Part shown: positions 3,106-12,427 of the stretch, piece by piece
Layout of the letters: the number at the start of each line of letters is the position of its first letter
How positions within the stretch are numbered: position 1 is the first letter of the stretch
Assembly (NCBI GenBank): GCA_002704825.1
Contig: PAIY01000246.1
Span: 1 to 64,000 of the forward strand
Source: Phycisphaeraceae bacterium
GTDB taxonomy: Bacteria; Planctomycetota; Phycisphaerae; Phycisphaerales; Phycisphaeraceae
Length of the DNA stretch: 64,000 nt
Reading direction: 5' to 3'
Position numbers and translations under genes: made by a program
The notes under the pieces: model-generated
What the model was told of the DNA's origin: nothing
The model's input: the letters and a program-made list of their open reading frames with translations, nothing else
Databases searched by the model: none

Positions 3106-4398
3106 TTGCGGACCATCGCCATCATTAACCAGAAAGGCGGCTGCGGGAAGACGACAGTGTCGATCAACCTGGCTGCTGTGCTTGCTGCTCAAGGGCAACG
3201 AACCCTGCTTGTGGATATGGACCCACAGGGCCATTGTGCATTAGGCCTTGCTGTCCCCGAAGCTCAGATCAATCAGTCTATGGCAGACATGATGATGGCA
3301 GGCCTCGACGGTTCACTGGCGATGGCTGACGTCGTCTGGCAAATCTCGCGCAACTTCGACCTGGCGCCGGCAACCACTGCCCTGGCGGGTGTCGAAGTCC
3401 AGCTGGCAAACGCTTCGGATCGTGATCGTCGCTTGGTTCAGGTGCTCAGCACGATTCAATCCAATTACGATATCTGCATTATTGACTGTCCCCCGTCGAT
3501 CGGGCTTTTGACCTTCAACGCGCTGCGTGCGTGTGACGAAGTGATCGTGCCTGTCGAAACGGGCTATTTCGCGTTGCAGGGCTCCTTCAAACAGGAAGCG
3601 ACCGTCGAAATGATGGTCCGCCGTACCGGTCATCAGGTTCGCCATAAAGTCTTGGCAACGATGTATGACGTGCGGACGAAACTGGCTCGCGAAATCTTAA
3701 GCGAACTCAAGAAACACTTCGGCGAATCACTCCTGCCGGTGGTGGTCAACTTCAACGCCAAACTCAAGGAAGCCGCCAGCTTCGGCCAGCCGATCACTGA
3801 GTATGATCCGACAAGCCGAGGCATGCAGGACTTTGAGCAGTTGACAGCATGGTTGCTTGCCAACCCCCCGATTCCCGCCACTGTGCCTGAGTCCGAAGAG
3901 GTAGAAGCGCCAGCCGCGAATCCAGCATTGAGTCGTGCCGCCGAACTCGTTGAACGTGCCCGCGCTTTGTCGGCTCGTACCGCCACTTTGGCCAATAAGA
4001 TTGCCTCAGATCCGGCCGTGGCTCGCACGGGTTTGATGCAGGAAGCCGAGCGTCAGCGTGAAGACCGTGCCCCGGACCCGGTGATCGTCTCGGAAAATGT
4101 GAAACGCATGGAACGCCTCTTTGGTGTCCGCAAGACTCAGCAAGGTGTTCTCTTTGTCCAGCCACAACAGACCGCCAGCCAGATCAGCGTTGCCGGTGAC
4201 TTTAACAATTGGTCACCCACCGCCACGCCGCTCAAGCGTGACACCGACCTGGGCGTTTGGCAGACCTGTGTCCCCATCCCGCCCGGTCGCTACCGCTACC
4301 GCGTGGTCATCGACGGACAATGGAAGCACGACCAATACAACTCGTCGATCGAAACCAATCCCTTCGGCGAACTGAACAGCATTTTGGAAGTTGGATAA
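3106..4398 (+). CDS. ParA-type ATPase fused to AMPK-beta-like glycogen-binding domain (CBM48)
   Basis: Residues 1-252 form a complete ParA/MinD-type ATPase: deviant Walker A KGGCGKTT at 10-17, VDMDPQGH at 37-43, and DCPPSIG at 128-133. ParA ATPases position plasmids, chromosomes or protein clusters on the nucleoid or poles. An Ala/Glu/Arg-rich linker (255-345) follows. Residues 350-430 match the AMPK-beta glycogen-binding domain, with GDFNNWS (Trp369), GVWQT (Trp385), YRYRVVIDGQW (Trp406) and ELNSI (Asn424), the equivalents of known glycogen-contacting residues. The start is TTG 3106: AAGGA ends 7 bases upstream and an in-frame stop lies at 3088-3090. The fusion is clear; the cargo (a polysaccharide granule or glycan-bearing structure) is inference. 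The next gene, 370 bases downstream, encodes a large acidic protein. Confidence 0.9.
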   Translation: MRTIAIINQKGGCGKTTVSINLAAVLAAQGQRTLLVDMDPQGHCALGLAVPEAQINQSMADMMMAGLDGSLAMADVVWQISRNFDLAPATTALAGVEVQLANASDRDRRLVQVLSTIQSNYDICIIDCPPSIGLLTFNALRACDEVIVPVETGYFALQGSFKQEATVEMMVRRTGHQVRHKVLATMYDVRTKLAREILSELKKHFGESLLPVVVNFNAKLKEAASFGQPITEYDPTSRGMQDFEQLTAWLLANPPIPATVPESEEVEAPAANPALSRAAELVERARALSARTATLANKIASDPAVARTGLMQEAERQREDRAPDPVIVSENVKRMERLFGVRKTQQGVLFVQPQQTASQISVAGDFNNWSPTATPLKRDTDLGVWQTCVPIPPGRYRYRVVIDGQWKHDQYNSSIETNPFGELNSILEVG

Positions 4399-4450: not shown

Positions 4451-4550
4451 TTAACCACAGAGTCACAGAGACACAGAGCCGGAAAACGAGATTCTGATTA
4501 ATGATAAGTTTTGCCTTGAATTCTCTGTGCCTCTGTGTCTCTGTGGTTAA
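4451..4550. repeat. CACAGAG-type inverted repeat
   Basis: Arms at 4451-4478 and 4523-4550 are reverse complements over 28 bases with two mismatches, beginning TTAACCACAGAG and made of iterated ACACAGAG units. The 44-base loop is unremarkable. A lone related arm (CTCTGTGCCTCTGTGGTT) occurs at about 57288-57307. The repeat fills much of the 371-base gap between the ParA fusion and the acidic protein gene. Confidence 0.8.
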
Positions 4551-4769: not shown

Positions 4770-7310
4770 GTGTTGGATCGACAACGCACCGATAAAGAGC
4801 TCGACGCATTGGCGGATTTGTACCTCACAGGTCCCGATGACACCGAAGATTCGTCCTCCAACACCGAGGCGATGGGTATCGGTGCGCAACGCGATTCGGC
4901 TTCCCAGCGACGCAAAGGTCCAGGCAAAGTTCAGGCTGCTGACAGCGCGGAGTCCTATGACCGTTACCCCGGCACGCGTTCCACGGGGTTGATGACCGAA
5001 CCTCAGCCGGCCAAACTTAATCCCAAAGTCACTACCCAAACCAACAAAACCAGGACCAACCCATCTGCTGGTGCGACTGCTTCGCCGTCTGACGAAGACC
5101 TGCTTGCCGAGCAGCTTGCTGAACTCTCTGACCAGACCAGGCGCGATGAGCCGACCCTGCGACTGGTGAATCTTGAACTTGAATCCGCCATGCCCGATTC
5201 CGATGATTCGCAAACGGATCAACAAACCTTCAATCAATCTTTCGACAATGCCCACGATGCCGATGACCCGCAGCATGCCGCCATGGATTTTCAGGCCGCC
5301 AAGTCTGCTTCGGCATCCGATGAGAAGGACGCGTCCATTCTCCAGATTGATGAACCCATTGCCATTGTCGATAAACGTGTCGAAGTGGTGTTCCTGGGTA
5401 ATCTCCCGGGCTTTGCTTCGCCATGGATGACGCAATACGCACAGCATGTCGCCCTTGAGTGTGGCGTGGTGGGGGTGTTGCACATTGATGATGAACAGAT
5501 CGACCTTGATTTTGTCACCACCCCCGCCAACCGCGTCAAGCTTGACAACCTGCACCGACAGGTGATGGCTTTCGATCAGGCTGACGACCTCATTGCTGTT
5601 TTGGATTTGCTTAACCAAGGTGCTGACCCCGTGGTCGGTGCCTGGCTGATTCATCTGGCCACACCTCTCACCGCCACCACCAAGACCATTGCCCGGTCGC
5701 TTCCAGTTTGGACGCTATTGTCAGGGGTTGATGAGGCGGCCGGTGCCCGGGCGATGGATTGGTTGTCCCATTGCATGAAAGTCGCTGACCCCGCGAGTAT
5801 GAGTCATGTCCAGTTCATGGGCATGGGCTGTGACATTGATCGCGCGGTCGCCCTGATTCGCCAACTCGATGAACGTGCCCTGGATCAGTGGGACACCTCC
5901 ATCGAACTCGTCGGCGTTCAGCGTCAGATGGTTCCGGTCCACCTGCAAACGCTTGGCAGCTTCCCGACCATGCTCGAACAGTGGCCGGTGATTGCACGCC
6001 TTGTTGCAGGCGATTCAGCCAGCTCGGATCACCGAAGCTCGCTGGTTACGCGAATTGATCCCTCAAGCCAACAGTCGCAAACCAAAGTCACGCCGCCGCA
6101 GCCGGAGTTGGATGACGATGATCAAACCATCGAAACATCCAAACCTGGCAGTCATGATTTTGAAGCCACCGTCACTGCTGAAGAAGCACGCAACCTGCTC
6201 ATGGCAGCCGCCAAGATGGACGGCATCAGCATCCAGGGTGTCGAACTCGAAGAGACAGAGAATGTCGAAGATGAGATCGAAGACGTGTTAACCGCGCCTT
6301 CGACGCAAGCAACACTGTCGGACATCGCCCCGTTGGAAGCATCTCACAGTGAAGATATGTCGGACACCGGTGCGTTTGATGCCCTGGCAGACGAGGATGC
6401 GGTCGATGAACTTGATGAGATGGAAGCCGAAGCGGTGCAGGTGGATGATGATGCCCAGTTGACCGGCCATGACATTGCCACCGATGCCGTCCCCGAACCG
6501 GAAGTGGTGTCGGAAACGGTCCGCAGTTTTGTCGAACGTCTCAAGCAACAGGAATTGGAAAAACGTCGTCAGGCCAAAACCGATGGTAAAGCGAATGTCG
6601 GTGCCGACGTCGCAGCCTCCGAGCCGGTGGATGATGAGATTGATGACGTTGATGATTCGGATACAGGTCATGATGTTGCAGAGCATACGCATGATCCGGA
6701 ACCTGCGATGACTGTTGCTCAGATTGCTCGCGAATCGCAACGTGGCGAGGATGTGCATGCTCATATTCTGCATCACCAGCCTAAGCAGCAGTCCGAACCC
6801 CAACCCAGCAAGCATAAGGCCCAGCCGACCACGCAGCGTGTGGTTGCCTCCAAGCCTCAATCCAAGCCGCGCCCGACTGCTGAGCCGGATCATGTGTATT
6901 CGCATGAGACTTCGCAGCCACATTTGGCCAGTTTCCTGCAGGAAGCGGGCATGATCAGTCTGACCGCCCGTTGTCCGCATCACCCGCAGGTGGAACTCAC
7001 CCTCGATGAGTCCGGCGGACTGCATTTACTGGCTCGTCATCAGCAAGCTGCTGGCAAGTCGATCAATGATGCCATTTACGAACTGCTCGATGCCCGCGGC
7101 TGGGTCGATCAGCATATCTCCCTCTTGAGCATGACCCAGAAGCAGCTGCGCTTTGACATGCAGATCCGCCCAGTGGTGCACCTGTTCACCGATGATGCCA
7201 AAGCCGGTGCGAAGTTGGTTGCCAACAGCGCCCGCTTTGTGAAGCTGCACCTGCTTTCGGAAGTGAAGGTCGGCCATGACAAAGCATTCTACTGCACCGA
7301 ACTCAACTGA
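4770..7310 (+). CDS. Large acidic protein of unknown function, ParA-fusion neighbour
   Basis: I do not recognise this 846-residue protein. It has an unstructured N-terminus (1-185, rich in Asp, Ser, Thr and Gln), a folded domain at about 190-390 beginning VEVVFLGNLPGFASPW with alternating hydrophobic strands and helices, a long low-complexity acidic region at 405-690 (many Asp/Glu, then His/Gln/Lys/Pro), and a folded C-terminal domain at about 725-846 beginning ISLTARCPHH. No signal peptide or membrane segment is seen. The start is GTG 4770; TTG 4773 is an alternative. A strong terminator follows. Its place between the ParA fusion and two bactofilins suggests a scaffold or adaptor, which is inference from context only. 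Confidence 0.75.
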   Translation: MLDRQRTDKELDALADLYLTGPDDTEDSSSNTEAMGIGAQRDSASQRRKGPGKVQAADSAESYDRYPGTRSTGLMTEPQPAKLNPKVTTQTNKTRTNPSAGATASPSDEDLLAEQLAELSDQTRRDEPTLRLVNLELESAMPDSDDSQTDQQTFNQSFDNAHDADDPQHAAMDFQAAKSASASDEKDASILQIDEPIAIVDKRVEVVFLGNLPGFASPWMTQYAQHVALECGVVGVLHIDDEQIDLDFVTTPANRVKLDNLHRQVMAFDQADDLIAVLDLLNQGADPVVGAWLIHLATPLTATTKTIARSLPVWTLLSGVDEAAGARAMDWLSHCMKVADPASMSHVQFMGMGCDIDRAVALIRQLDERALDQWDTSIELVGVQRQMVPVHLQTLGSFPTMLEQWPVIARLVAGDSASSDHRSSLVTRIDPSSQQSQTKVTPPQPELDDDDQTIETSKPGSHDFEATVTAEEARNLLMAAAKMDGISIQGVELEETENVEDEIEDVLTAPSTQATLSDIAPLEASHSEDMSDTGAFDALADEDAVDELDEMEAEAVQVDDDAQLTGHDIATDAVPEPEVVSETVRSFVERLKQQELEKRRQAKTDGKANVGADVAASEPVDDEIDDVDDSDTGHDVAEHTHDPEPAMTVAQIARESQRGEDVHAHILHHQPKQQSEPQPSKHKAQPTTQRVVASKPQSKPRPTAEPDHVYSHETSQPHLASFLQEAGMISLTARCPHHPQVELTLDESGGLHLLARHQQAAGKSINDAIYELLDARGWVDQHISLLSMTQKQLRFDMQIRPVVHLFTDDAKAGAKLVANSARFVKLHLLSEVKVGHDKAFYCTELN

Positions 7311-7364: not shown

Positions 7365-7621
7365 GTGTTGTTGATTAAATTACGCACGTCCCTCACGGTT
7401 ACACGTCTGGCGTGTCGATCCACGAATTCCCACGATTTGTGGACGTCTGGTGGACAACTCTCAGTTTAGTCGTGGTTTTACGTCCGAGAACTCCACGAAA
7501 GCTGTTCATTTTCGGGCTGTTGGAGATTTGGTCGTGAAAGGGTCGATTCAATGGATCGAGGCACGACAATGTTTGTGGTGCCCTGAGTATTGAATTTTTC
7601 ACACTAGACGGAGTGGAAGCT

Positions 7622-8167
7622 GTGAGCGACAAACAAAATACCAAGACCGTTCTGGGCCCGGATGTCAAAATCAAGGGTCAGATTTCCCTGGACAACGATG
7701 CAGTGATCATGGGCGAAGTGTCCGGTCAGATTCGCGTCGGTGGCATGCTCGAATTGACTGAAACCTCCCGCGTCGAAGGTCTTGTCGTGGCAGGCGGTCT
7801 GCGTCTGGGCGGTCAGGCCAAGGCGGACATCGTGGCGGAACACGGCATGGAACTGCTGGCTTCGGCCCAGTTGACCGGCCAACTCTACACCTCGCGTCTT
7901 TCCGTCGTCGATGGTGCCATGTTCGAAGGTCACGTTGTCGTGGGTCCCAATGCGATGCAGGCGGCCAGCGATGTGATGCAGGGTGTCGAAGACATTCAGG
8001 TTGATACCAACCACGAACAGTTCACCCCAGCCAATGGTTCGAAGCCCGACATCAACACCGTGCCCCGTTCACTGGACGAAATCCTGGCACGCCGTCGCAG
8101 CAAGACCAACGGTCAGGCTGTTCCCCAACATGTCGGTGCTGGTGCAGCAGAAGAGACAGACGAGTAA
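7622..8167 (+). CDS. Bactofilin (polymer-forming cytoskeletal protein)
   Basis: Bactofilins are small beta-helical proteins that self-assemble without nucleotides into filaments that scaffold envelope synthesis or polarity proteins. The core at about residues 10-112 shows the repeated short strands with regular Gly and hydrophobic residues typical of the family (LGPDVKIKGQI, GEVSGQIRVGG, ADIVAEHGMELL). A disordered C-terminal tail of about 60 residues follows. The start is taken as GTG 7622, with GGAG 8 bases upstream; GTG 7613 would overlap that SD. A second bactofilin gene follows 142 bases downstream. Confidence 0.9.
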   Translation: MSDKQNTKTVLGPDVKIKGQISLDNDAVIMGEVSGQIRVGGMLELTETSRVEGLVVAGGLRLGGQAKADIVAEHGMELLASAQLTGQLYTSRLSVVDGAMFEGHVVVGPNAMQAASDVMQGVEDIQVDTNHEQFTPANGSKPDINTVPRSLDEILARRRSKTNGQAVPQHVGAGAAEETDE

Positions 8168-8240: not shown

Positions 8241-8309
8241 CCATTGTGACGCATATTTTCGTTCGTGGTATCACTGACATGTGATGCTCAAGAAAGTGTC
8301 GCAGAGGCT

Positions 8310-8795
8310 ATGCCGTTAAAGCCATCCATGTTGACGACGCACCCGCGCAAGCCTCAGCCGCGCGAGGTCCGGTCGCTGAGTTGCCCCAATTGCGGTGCGC
8401 CCATCCAGGTAAGCCGTCGGGCGATGAGCTATCGCTGTGGCAAGTGTTCGATGCCGATGAAGCTCGAAGATGTCACCGTGGATCAACTCAACAACACCCG
8501 GACGCTTAACACCATGGGGCACATCCACCTCACCGCTCACAGCAAGGTGGACGGCGAATTGCGATGTGGCGAACTGACCGTCAGCGGTTCCTACCATGGC
8601 AATGCCCACGTGCATGGCAAGGTTCACATGCAGTCACACAGTCACTGCTCCGGCGAGATCAATGCCCGGTCACTGACCATTGATGACGGTGCGAGCTTTG
8701 AAGGCCAACTCCGCATCGGCCCCAAAGCACGCATCGAAGCACCACAGCTCGAACCGCCGGAGTTTCACGATCCCATGATCGACCCGGCAGCCTAA
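8310..8795 (+). CDS. Zinc-ribbon bactofilin
   Basis: A second bactofilin-type beta-helix (about residues 60-150, with GHIHLTAHSKVDGEL and SYHGNAHVHGKVHM) carrying an N-terminal zinc ribbon, CPNC...CGKC, at about residues 28-51. The core is unusually rich in His. Ribbons fused to bactofilins occur in some planctomycetes; metal binding is inferred from the four cysteines. The start is uncertain: ATG 8310 is used here; GTG 8265 or ATG 8328 are alternatives, and none has a good SD. The gene is followed by a terminator and is probably part of the same functional cluster as the bactofilin upstream. Confidence 0.82.
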   Translation: MPLKPSMLTTHPRKPQPREVRSLSCPNCGAPIQVSRRAMSYRCGKCSMPMKLEDVTVDQLNNTRTLNTMGHIHLTAHSKVDGELRCGELTVSGSYHGNAHVHGKVHMQSHSHCSGEINARSLTIDDGASFEGQLRIGPKARIEAPQLEPPEFHDPMIDPAA

Positions 8796-9101: not shown

Positions 9102-9734
9102 TTACGCCGTTTCGGCTTCAGCTTGCTTTTGGGCTTCGGGAGCCGGTGCAGCGGGTTTATCGCTCTTGCGTTTTTCGTTGGAAGCCACCTTGTCCGGTGC
9201 CAGGATCATCGTCATACGACGGCCTGCCATACGGGCGGGGGTTTCAACTTTGCTGATCGGGGCAAGCAGTTCGATGATGCCCTGCATGGTTCGCATACCC
9301 AGGTCCTGGTGAGCCATTTCGCGGCCACGGAAGAGCATGGTGAATTGAACCTTGTTACCAGCCTGCAGGAACTGCGTGGCCTTGTTGGTTTTGATCTCAA
9401 GGTCATGCGGGTCGATCTTGGGGCGCAGACGAACTTCCTTGAGTTCACTGGTTTTGGAGTGACTCTTGGCTTTCTGTTCTTTTTTACTCTGCTGATACTT
9501 CCACTTGCCGTAGTCCATGATACGGCAGACGGGCGGTTGAGCCTGAGGGGCGACTTCGACGAGGTCCAGACCGGCATCACGTGCACGGTTCTTGGCGACG
9601 TCAGTATTCACAACGCCGATTTTCTCGTTGTTTTCGTCGACCAGAAAGACAGTGGGGGTGCGAATGTAATCATTGACGCGGAGACGTTTGCTCGACGAAT
9701 CTTGATTTCGCGGACGAAATGATCTGCTAGCGAT
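9102..9734 (-). CDS. infC: Translation initiation factor IF-3, ATC start codon
   Basis: IF-3 binds the 30S subunit, blocks premature 50S joining and checks start-codon pairing. Both domains are present: the N-domain from RVNDYIRTPTVFLVDENNEKIG through PPVCRIMDYGKWKYQ, and the C-domain from EVRLRPKIDPHDLE onward. A 25-residue Ala/Lys/Glu/Pro tail is extra. The frame is open to ATG 9809, but that ATG is embedded in a TATAATG promoter-like box. A GGAGG (9743-9747) precedes an in-frame ATC at 9734-9732 by exactly 8 bases, giving a 210-residue protein (I/M)ASRSFRP. Non-AUG starts of infC (AUU in E. coli) are a known autoregulatory feature. A terminator follows, and the usual downstream rpmI-rplT are absent. 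Confidence 0.93.
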   Translation of the reverse strand: MASRSFRPRNQDSSSKRLRVNDYIRTPTVFLVDENNEKIGVVNTDVAKNRARDAGLDLVEVAPQAQPPVCRIMDYGKWKYQQSKKEQKAKSHSKTSELKEVRLRPKIDPHDLEIKTNKATQFLQAGNKVQFTMLFRGREMAHQDLGMRTMQGIIELLAPISKVETPARMAGRRMTMILAPDKVASNEKRKSDKPAAPAPEAQKQAEAETA

Positions 9735-9807
9735 GGCTTGTTCCTCCAAGCTCAACCAATAAACAAGTGACCGTCTACGGTGACGGTTGCTGACTTCATA
9801 TCGACAC

Positions 9808-9813
9808 ATTATA
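9808..9813 (-). promoter_or_regulatory. Candidate -10 box of infC
   Basis: On the minus strand the sequence reads TATAAT, followed by GTG. No good -35 is visible at 16-18 bases. If used, transcription would start near 9801, giving a leader of about 67 bases before the ATC start and leaving ATG 9809 outside the mRNA. Confidence 0.4.
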
Positions 9814-9979
9814 GGGGGGCAGACCAGTTAAATGCGAGTCGATTGGCCCAAAATCGCAGAAATTATGGGGTTTGGGGTTCCAAAATCATTGTTCAGGGCA
9901 ACAGATGACCGGTAAATTCCTGTTTGGCATCACATTGGACGGATGTTCAACCATTTGGCTGGTTCACCTCAAATCGTGA

Positions 9980-10933
9980 TCACAGGCCCGTGCCGTACCA
10001 GAGTAACCAGTACGCCAGCGGGGCGACGACCACCGGGGAGTCCACGACATCCAGCACGCCACCGAACCCGGGGATGGAATTGCCTGAGTCCTTGATGCCA
10101 GCATCACGCTTAAACAGGCTGGCGGTCAGATCACCAAACTGCCCGACCGCGCCCATGAGTAGACCCGCAGCAAAGGTCCGGGGCAGGTGAAAGTCATTGG
10201 AGACAAACGTGCGCACGCCGTCAATGGTGTGATAAATGCCCGCGACATCAAACTTGTTGGACAGGTAGGCCAAAAGCAGGGCGATACAGCCTGAAAACAG
10301 GACACCGCCGACGAGGCCTTCCCAGGTTTTACCCGGTGACAGCCAGGGGATGAGTTTGTGCTTGCCGATCGCACGGCCGGTGAAATACGCCCCGATGTCA
10401 CAGCTTTTGACCGCCAGCAGCACCGCCAGCAGGACCCATGGCGAATACCAACGCCGGATCGCAACCAGGAATCCGGGCATCAGCCCCATGTAAATCAACG
10501 CAAACATCGTCACTGCTGCCGCTGCCACCGCGCCGTCCGTCCGCTTGTGAATCCAGCATTGCTTGATCAGTGATAACACGAACAAAATACAGATCACCGT
10601 CCCGGCGACGGCCATCGTCATCTTCGCATCGGCGCTGTGTGGGATGGCATACATCATCATGCAGCCACTCATCCCAGCCAACGTCACCACCGACCGGCTG
10701 GCGGCAATGCCCTTGGCGTTGAAGATCCGACAGAGTTCGCCTGCGCCCAACAGGATCAGCAGGAAAATTGTCGCAAGCAAAATCAAACCCGATGGCAGAT
10801 ACGTCCGGCCTGCAAAGACATCCTGCAGGACGGTGCCGGTGATATCCAGCTGGTCGAGTTTGCTGTCCAGATAGAAGATCAGCAGCATGATCCCGATCAT
10901 GATCGGGCCAAATGTCAGGCGATACTTGAGCAT
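9980..10933 (-). CDS. cdsA: Phosphatidate cytidylyltransferase (CDP-diglyceride synthase)
   Basis: CdsA makes CDP-diacylglycerol from CTP and phosphatidic acid at the inner membrane, the branch point of phospholipid synthesis. The 317-residue protein is polytopic (about eight hydrophobic segments) and ends with the family signature SLFKRDAGIKDSGNSIPGFGG at about residues 272-292, plus GKTWEGLVGG at about 207. The start is ATG 10933. It lies upstream of infC on the same strand, separated by 245 bases that include the infC promoter candidate. Confidence 0.92.
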   Translation of the reverse strand: MLKYRLTFGPIMIGIMLLIFYLDSKLDQLDITGTVLQDVFAGRTYLPSGLILLATIFLLILLGAGELCRIFNAKGIAASRSVVTLAGMSGCMMMYAIPHSADAKMTMAVAGTVICILFVLSLIKQCWIHKRTDGAVAAAAVTMFALIYMGLMPGFLVAIRRWYSPWVLLAVLLAVKSCDIGAYFTGRAIGKHKLIPWLSPGKTWEGLVGGVLFSGCIALLLAYLSNKFDVAGIYHTIDGVRTFVSNDFHLPRTFAAGLLMGAVGQFGDLTASLFKRDAGIKDSGNSIPGFGGVLDVVDSPVVVAPLAYWLLWYGTGL

Positions 10934-10997
10934 GCCCGGTATGGTATCAAACCCACCTCAACTTAGCGCCCCCCGGATGTCCCCGGAAGTTTCCCTC

Positions 10998-11018
10998 AAA
11001 CCGCTTGCGGTTCAGCGC
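10998..11018. repeat. AACCGCTTGCGGTT repeat, copy 1
   Basis: AAACCGCTTGCGGTTCAGCGC, a short hairpin with an AACCGC/GCGGTT stem followed by the shared AGCGC tail. Four further copies occur at 28358-28380, 28423-28446, 40282-40303 and 49355-49376. It lies between the divergent cdsA and sigma factor genes. Confidence 0.6.
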
Positions 11019-11130
11019 ATCCCCATTTTCCCAAATTCAAGAAAAATCAGAACAATCTCACCGAACCTGAAACACCCACCATCTCATTCCGTCTATACAA
11101 TGGAAACCCAGCCATTCTAGGGGTGTCGCA

Positions 11131-11967
11131 ATGGGCGAAATGGATCGACAACTGCTTGAGGAATTCAGCCAGTGTGGCAATGAGCTTGCCTTTGCCCGGC
11201 TGGTCAATCGATACTCCGCGCTGGTGTACTCTGCCAGCTACCGCGTGCTCAACAATCATGCTCAGGCAGAGGAAGTCTGCCAGGAGACGTTTTTCAAACT
11301 CCTCAACCATTCCCGCCAGATCACCACATCGCTCTCGGGCTGGTTGTATCAAACCGCTGTCCGCCTTTCCATCGACATGATTCGATCCGATCAGGCACGC
11401 AATACACGCGAACGCAACTATGCTCACGATCAGTTCAAAGCCTCGCAACAGGTGACCAGTTGGAAGCAGCTCGAATCACACTTGGATGAAGCGTTGGACT
11501 TACTGCCCGATGATCAGCGCGACTTACTTGTTGAGCATTTTCTCCAGGGCATCAGTCAACGCCAGATCGCTGCCAAACATGGTTGGTCCACTGCGACAAC
11601 GCATCGCTACATCAAGCATGCCATCGAAAAACTCCGCGAACAACTCAACGAAAAACACCTCAGTGTCGCTGCGCTTCCAGCCATTCTCAGCAGCTACTCG
11701 CATATGGTCGTCCCACCTGAACTATCCATGAAACTTGGCAAGATGGCGTTAGCCAGCGGTTACGCCCAGGCAGCGATTGGCGGTGTTCCCAAAATCGTGC
11801 TGCTCTGGGGTTCGATCAACAAGTTCTGGCTGATCCTCAGTCTCGCCTTGGCCATGGCATTCGGCGTTGCCCTGTGGCGATCCGTCGACCATCAACCCGC
11901 TCCCCGCCCTGAACGTTCACAGACCATCAACCTTTTCGGGGAGACCACCACCATGCCCGGGCAATAG
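11131..11967 (+). CDS. ECF-type RNA polymerase sigma factor with C-terminal membrane helix
   Basis: Sigma-70 region 2 spans about residues 18-88 (FARLVNRYSALVYSASYRVL, EEVCQETFFKL) and region 4 about 112-165 (LDLLPDDQRDLLVEHFLQG, then the helix-turn-helix ISQRQIAAKHGWSTATTHRYI). A C-terminal extension of about 110 residues holds one hydrophobic segment at about 228-250 (FWLILSLALAMAFGVALW). Planctomycete ECF factors with membrane-bound tails are known; the tail is thought to take the place of a separate anti-sigma factor. The start is ATG 11131, with GGGGTG just upstream. A small membrane protein and then a secretion operon follow on the same strand, so these may be its targets (inference). 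Confidence 0.88.
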   Translation: MGEMDRQLLEEFSQCGNELAFARLVNRYSALVYSASYRVLNNHAQAEEVCQETFFKLLNHSRQITTSLSGWLYQTAVRLSIDMIRSDQARNTRERNYAHDQFKASQQVTSWKQLESHLDEALDLLPDDQRDLLVEHFLQGISQRQIAAKHGWSTATTHRYIKHAIEKLREQLNEKHLSVAALPAILSSYSHMVVPPELSMKLGKMALASGYAQAAIGGVPKIVLLWGSINKFWLILSLALAMAFGVALWRSVDHQPAPRPERSQTINLFGETTTMPGQ

Positions 11968-11989
11968 TTTGGGATAAGGGGGAACAACA

Positions 11990-12376
11990 TTGAAAAAACA
12001 GTTCAAACCAACGTCGGTGCTGGCAGTCCTTTTGATCGTGTCGCTTTTGTGTAATGCAGCCATGGCCATCCTGTGGATGCAGGAGCGATCGTACGCAATC
12101 AACAAAGTTCGGGAAAGTGCTGGATCGATTGGCTTTTTAAGGGCTCGGTTGGATTACCAGGATGGTCATCGACGTTTGTTTCAGATTCAAGATCGACCTG
12201 AATTTTCAAAACCGGGCGCACACGAATTAAACACCGGGGTCGTAAAAAATGGTTTGGAAATCTGGGCAGTAGGAAGCTACTCCGACAAACCCTATCTCTG
12301 CGACTTTGGGGATGGTTTTTTAAATGCCTATAACCAAACGATGAGGCGTTTGGTTGTTGAAAAGTCAGATCATTAA
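11990..12376 (+). CDS. Small signal-anchored protein
   Basis: A 128-residue protein with an N-terminal hydrophobic helix at about residues 10-30 after MKKQFK, consistent with a signal anchor or uncleaved signal peptide. The rest is soluble, with no recognised domain. TTG 11990 is the likely start because AAGGGGGA lies 6-13 bases upstream; no ATG exists near the N-terminus. It sits 22 bases after the sigma factor and 51 bases before the secretion ATPase, so it is probably cotranscribed and could be an accessory or regulator. No function is assigned. Confidence 0.65.
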   Translation: MKKQFKPTSVLAVLLIVSLLCNAAMAILWMQERSYAINKVRESAGSIGFLRARLDYQDGHRRLFQIQDRPEFSKPGAHELNTGVVKNGLEIWAVGSYSDKPYLCDFGDGFLNAYNQTMRRLVVEKSDH

Positions 12377-12427
12377 TTCTGGTTTGCTGTCACATTGCTC
12401 AACGATCAATCACCTTTCGGAGTACCC

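Follow-up and report, generated by a model that had tools for sequence, protein, structure and literature searches.

A ParA-type ATPase carrying an AMPK-beta-type glycogen-binding domain and its likely tagged, FlhG-like partner in Phycisphaerae and other bacteria

The ParA-GBD gene and its ATPase domain

The window analysed here is a stretch of 64,000 nucleotides from a Phycisphaeraceae bacterium (contig PAIY01000246.1 of assembly GCA_002704825.1). An open reading frame on the forward strand (3106-4398), which starts with TTG just downstream of an AGGA box, encodes a protein of 430 amino acids, here called ParA-GBD. Pfam matches, conservation and an AlphaFold2 model were used to define its architecture. 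It consists of a complete Soj-like ParA domain (residues 1-252; 3106-3861), a helical linker (residues 273-318; 3922-4059) and a C-terminal glycogen-binding domain (GBD) of the AMPK beta type (residues about 340-429; 4123-4392), all on the forward strand. In the model the same three parts are seen, with ParA at 1-252, the linker at 273-318 and the GBD from 340; the mean pLDDT is 88.9 and most values in the GBD are 95-98. The original prediction had proposed that a ParA ATPase is joined here to an AMPK-beta-type GBD, and on this Pfam, phmmer searches of the PDB and the model agree. The fusion is not a chance join or an assembly error, because a sister genome carries the same protein (99%) on one contig and the full-length fusion is present in dozens of further genomes.

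Residues 1-172 match Pfam AAA_31 (PF13614) at 1.2e-47. The deviant Walker A motif, KGGCGKTT (residues 10-17; 3133-3156, forward strand), conforms to KGGxGK[TS], and K10, G11, G12, G14, K15 and T16 are invariant in 39 ParA-GBD proteins. The best phmmer matches of the ParA part in the PDB are Soj/ParA 8ray (2e-50) and Soj 1wcv (6.9e-45), and Foldseek matched the model to Soj 9a6n (5e-28) and 2bek (5.3e-25) with a TM score of 0.93 normalised by Soj. The GBD is absent from the top 50 Foldseek matches because the ATPase dominates the search with the whole model. The phmmer alignment also shows that the DxRT stretch keeps its Arg. With an intact, invariant Walker motif and a Soj-like fold, the ATPase is complete, as had been claimed. 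ParA-GBD thus resembles ParA/Soj of the chromosomal ParABS system in fold, deviant Walker A motif and closest solved structures, but only ParA-GBD carries the C-terminal GBD.

The glycogen-binding domain

Residues 354-429 match Pfam AMPK1_CBM (PF16561, related to CBM48) at 8.1e-13, with 48.8 bits against a curated cut-off of 26.8. When the C-terminus was compared to the PDB with phmmer, the GBDs of AMPK beta-2 and beta-1 (1z0m/1z0n, 1e-9) came ahead of other folds, which argues against an alternative E-set fold. In the alignment to these structures the sugar-contacting Trp, Trp and Asn of AMPK beta fall on the Trp residues of FNNW and DGQW and on an Asn in the last strand. In ParA-GBD these residues are Trp369 (4210-4212), Trp406 (4321-4323) and Asn424 (4375-4377), all on the forward strand, and their counterparts are taken to be Trp100, Trp133 and Asn150 in rat beta-1 numbering, to which Lys126 and Leu146 below also refer. 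The retention of the two Trp and the Asn, first noticed in the window, extends to the whole family: in 39 proteins from several phyla W369, W406 and N367 are invariant, and N424 is conserved in at least 90%.

The likeness to the AMPK beta GBD lies in the fold and in this Trp/Trp/Asn platform, but there the domain sits on a kinase scaffold and here on a ParA. A further difference is that the window GBD has Arg in place of Lys126 and Phe in place of Leu146; most ParA-GBD proteins have Arg and Phe or Tyr at these positions, and the Arg is conserved across the class Phycisphaerae. Conservation of the platform alone does not prove that ParA-GBD binds glucan, because many bacterial GBDs of other architectures keep it too. 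Judged from its sequence, the GBD probably does bind glucan. A second, short AMPK1_CBM protein (frame of 127 aa, 58.7 bits) is encoded in the window's own genome (locus L001, 1501-1743; contig C86 of genome G000).

The partner gene and its N-terminal tag

Among the neighbours of ParA-GBD in the class, the gene that follows it on the same strand is the best conserved. It was recognised by an HMM in 24 of 41 loci, and at the next-door position of the other 17 no match to this HMM was found. In the window the gene (4770-7310, forward strand) encodes a protein of 846 amino acids with an N-terminal tag, an FlhG-like domain, a long disordered stretch and a C-terminal alpha/beta domain. Between the two genes lies an imperfect inverted repeat (4451-4550) with 28-nt arms that are 93% complementary, TTAACCACAGAG...CTCTGTGGTTAA; it is the sole copy in the window and is covered by a small ORF.

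The tag, LDALADLYLT (residues 11-20; 4800-4829, forward strand), is a candidate ParA-contacting peptide, identified from motif scans, the model and the N-termini of ParB proteins. It is covered by a predicted helix (residues 4-19), and in most members it is preceded by basic residues. In its general form, LxxLAxLFLT / LGRGLEDISHLFLS, the tag is an extension of the ParB-type LGRGLxxL box, a core that the partner has in common with ParB of ParABS; the variant LGRGLEDVSHLFLS is a longer form of the LGRGLSALL box found in the ParBs of the same genomes. The tag starts with LG[RK]GL in several phyla, which is the core of the ParB N-termini (RLGRGLSALL) in these genomes. A similar tag opens the next gene in 11 of the 14 loci examined in other phyla.

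A non-circular test was made with a matrix derived from planctomycete partners only, which was then used to scan 743 ORFs from other phyla. Four of the top five were adjacent partners, and the fifth was another protein with the tag, from the L156 locus; the remaining partners scored lower, some of them within noise. With a combined matrix and 6907 ORFs, the training sequences included, the best matches were nearly all partners adjoining ParA-GBD, plus one DUF4912 protein, and scores reached 31 bits, compared to at most 16.2 for shuffled sequences. A tag match adjoining GlgB in L202 was discarded as a chance frame.

A short, positively charged N-terminus is the part by which partners of ParA/MinD ATPases contact and act on their ATPase (PMC10241942). 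McdA/McdB carboxysome positioning and other ParA/MinD cargo systems (PMC10241942) are similar to the present pair in that a ParA stands beside a divergent partner whose charged N-terminus is the contact peptide, but here the ATPase itself bears a carbohydrate-binding domain and the partner is FlhG-like. ParA-GBD has such an adjacent partner with a conserved N-terminal peptide, and contact between the two is predicted from the sequence; by analogy, the tag would touch ParA-GBD. The partner gene is the main evidence that ParA-GBD belongs to a positioning system.

Domains of the partner

The middle domain (residues 200-416; 5367-6017, forward strand) belongs to the MinD superfamily and resembles FlhG/FleN. 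Foldseek placed FlhG 4rz2 first for the window partner model (4.8e-7), and in hmmsearch the window partner family matched the same protein with an E-value of 0.004. The set of non-planctomycete partners, which aligns with the planctomycete set at 92%, matched PDB profiles of FleN and FlhG at about 1e-11. When the profile of the partner family was compared directly to ParA-GBD, the probability was only 5%; the link to FlhG comes from the PDB profiles and the model. The aligned partners show no Walker A motif, and the window partner has GNLPGFASPW at that position. Compared to FlhG/FleN, the partner shares the fold of this domain but lacks Walker A, carries an N-terminal tag and has no flagellar context that we could find. 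Pfam gave nothing in common for the window partner and 20 aligned relatives. The model has a mean pLDDT of 57, and most of both domains exceeds 70; overall confidence is low because half of the protein is disordered.

The C-terminal alpha/beta domain (residues 720-846; 6927-7307, forward strand) was defined from the model and from hhalign with separate proteins (70%, 4e-5). In some other phyla it is a third gene of its own, as in L147, L156, L164 and L175. It had no match in the PDB. The matches to NucS (0.073) and, for the L156 protein, to PADLOC PDC-S18 (3e-9) are weak signs of a nuclease-like domain, and kinship with PD-(D/E)XK proteins is only suggested. In PADLOC, ParA-GBD itself gave only weak ATPase matches and the window partner none.

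Two bactofilin genes (7613-8167 and 8265-8795, forward strand; PF04519, 4.5e-19 and 1.8e-14) directly follow the partner gene, the product of the second having a zinc-ribbon-like N-terminus. Bactofilin neighbours were seen only in the window's own genus. In Myxococcus, a ParA is tied to bactofilins via PadC. Of the upstream neighbours, LpxK and Maf were identified by Pfam and an HldE-like gene by eye; they have envelope or housekeeping roles, vary between loci and were rejected as a functional link. MerR-type genes lie upstream of ParA-GBD in L158 (4345-4902, by Pfam), L164 (5146-5601) and L174 (6392-6925), which are Deltaproteobacteria-/Myxococcota-like loci and a gammaproteobacterial one.

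Distribution and relation to the chromosomal ParA

Members of the ParA family were found in 123 of 198 sampled Phycisphaerae genomes, with one match each at a cut-off of 1e-60, and most of them extend through the GBD. The fusion is thus a single-copy gene in most of the class, and it is also present in a planctomycete of another class (L228). In the phylum sample more than 30 class members reach the end of the profile, and at least five (G066, G185, G155, G177 and G102) end before the GBD. Outside the planctomycetes at least 14 further loci carry the fusion, in Rokubacteria, Auribacter, Omnitrophota, genomes labelled as Deltaproteobacteria or Myxococcota, Zixibacteria and gammaproteobacteria. 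The architecture was absent from plasmid records. A plasmid origin is not supported, as the plasmid matches to the GBD region were few and weak, and the annotated ones were GlgB.

In a tree of 74 ParA domains, which is unrooted and does not include unfused ParAs of other phyla, fused and canonical ParAs fall on opposite sides of a branch with 100/99 support. The fused proteins group together in this sample, and no direction of change is implied by this grouping of sequences. The L094 protein (genome G189), which has no GBD, nests inside the fused clade. In this locus (gene at 9515-10588) the GBD was lost and the tagged partner is retained 35 bp downstream. A canonical ParA and ParB are encoded elsewhere in the same genomes as ParA-GBD, ParB having its own ParA there, and the protein adjoining ParA-GBD has no ParB domain and is not ParB.

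It had been stated that no characterised system of this kind is known, and our search of the open-licence literature agreed, as it yielded no description of the ParA-GBD system. ParA-GBD with its tagged FlhG-like partner is a real, widespread and apparently undescribed branch of ParA-type ATPases.

Alternative explanations

The original prediction went further and suggested glycogen granules, or another alpha-glucan structure, as the object that is positioned, or else control of a positioning system by glucan. The placement of a GBD on a ParA and the conservation of its platform stood up, and glycogen is a possible cargo. If it is the cargo, the granule would be held by the GBD and ParA would move on the nucleoid, in a cycle that the partner regulates. 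Consistent with it are the intact sugar platform and a GH57 1,4-alpha-glucan branching enzyme encoded about 5 kb from ParA-GBD in the sister genome, within the window's own genus; an alpha-glucan phosphorylase and a glycogen-synthase-like GT4 are close together in the same genome. The Omnitrophota locus L156 encodes, directly before a GH57 branching enzyme, a second tag-bearing protein, which has a DUF4912 domain. This protein (10876-12414) carries the tag KLGKGLEDISHLFLSS, a DUF4912 match of 1.5e-37 and a weak match to glucodextranase B. However, four carriers (G553, G556, G557 and G558) showed no matches, or weak partial ones, to GlgA, GlgB, phosphorylase and GH57, an absence that is uncertain in draft genomes such as these. 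The ParA family also does not track GH57, as it is present in 11 of 20 listed GH57-negative genomes compared to 123 of 198 overall, a comparison that counts all GH57 and not branching enzymes alone, among genomes that are not independent within a family. Furthermore, the GBD is absent in some relatives that retain GH57, and other DUF4912 proteins adjoining GH57 lack the tag. DUF4912 was rejected as a general cargo link since few carriers have it and it occurs with the tag solely in L156. A widespread system that positions or partitions alpha-glucan bodies, in which the ATPase is bound to the glucan and the cycle is completed by a tagged FlhG-like partner, is therefore a possible but rather unlikely explanation.

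A second explanation, which we likewise consider rather doubtful, is that the GBD has become a structural or protein-interaction E-set module that no longer binds glucan, and that the cargo of the system is of another kind. E-set domains are frequent mediators of contacts between proteins. The occurrence of ParA-GBD in carriers lacking known glycogen enzymes and the missing GBD of some relatives would fit such a role, but both Trp are invariant and the Asn is kept in at least 90% even in carriers without glycogen enzymes, and the class has a conserved Arg at the position of the AMPK Lys.

It is also conceivable, but improbable, that ParA-GBD and its partner place nothing and regulate an enzyme or transcription, as do BcsQ and FleN/FlhG. 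BcsQ supports cellulose secretion, and FleN/FlhG control FleQ and flagellar number. The FlhG/FleN-like fold of the partner, the presence of BcsQ among the next relatives of the ATPase and the MerR-type genes upstream in three of the other loci can be read in this way. Against it, the partner has no Walker A, its tag resembles the ParB box and not features of FlhG, and no bcs genes were found in the ParA-GBD neighbourhoods examined. Finally, the idea that ParA-GBD is the organism's chromosomal ParA with an appended domain, to which the closeness of its ATPase domain to Soj might point, is effectively ruled out by the separate canonical ParA and LGRGL-box ParB of the same genomes and by the split of the two groups in the tree.

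Proposed system

The cargoes that ParA/MinD ATPases position include plasmids, chromosomes, carboxysomes and chemoreceptors, and the field knows many orphan members without an assigned partner or cargo. We lean towards the view that ParA-GBD forms an additional ParA-type positioning or pattern-forming system apart from the chromosomal ParABS. ParA-GBD would dimerise with ATP and bind the nucleoid like Soj; the tag of the partner would dock on the dimer and, in the manner of the N-termini of ParB and other partners, trigger ATP hydrolysis; and the remainder of the partner would attach to the cargo. Through the GBD the ATPase may recognise alpha-glucan, by binding or sensing it, which would either tether the system to a glucan body or make glucan its switch. 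We consider such control or tethering by glucan the most likely reading; ParA and the partner would then form the working core, to which the GBD is an accessory. The GBD cannot be required for the core function because some relatives without it keep the ParA, and the partner where this was checked.

Sequence comparison across several phyla thus defines an orphan ATPase, its likely partner and a likely contact tag; the tag offers a handle for finding further cargo proteins. A glucan-binding module on a positioning ATPase would link storage metabolism to cell organisation.
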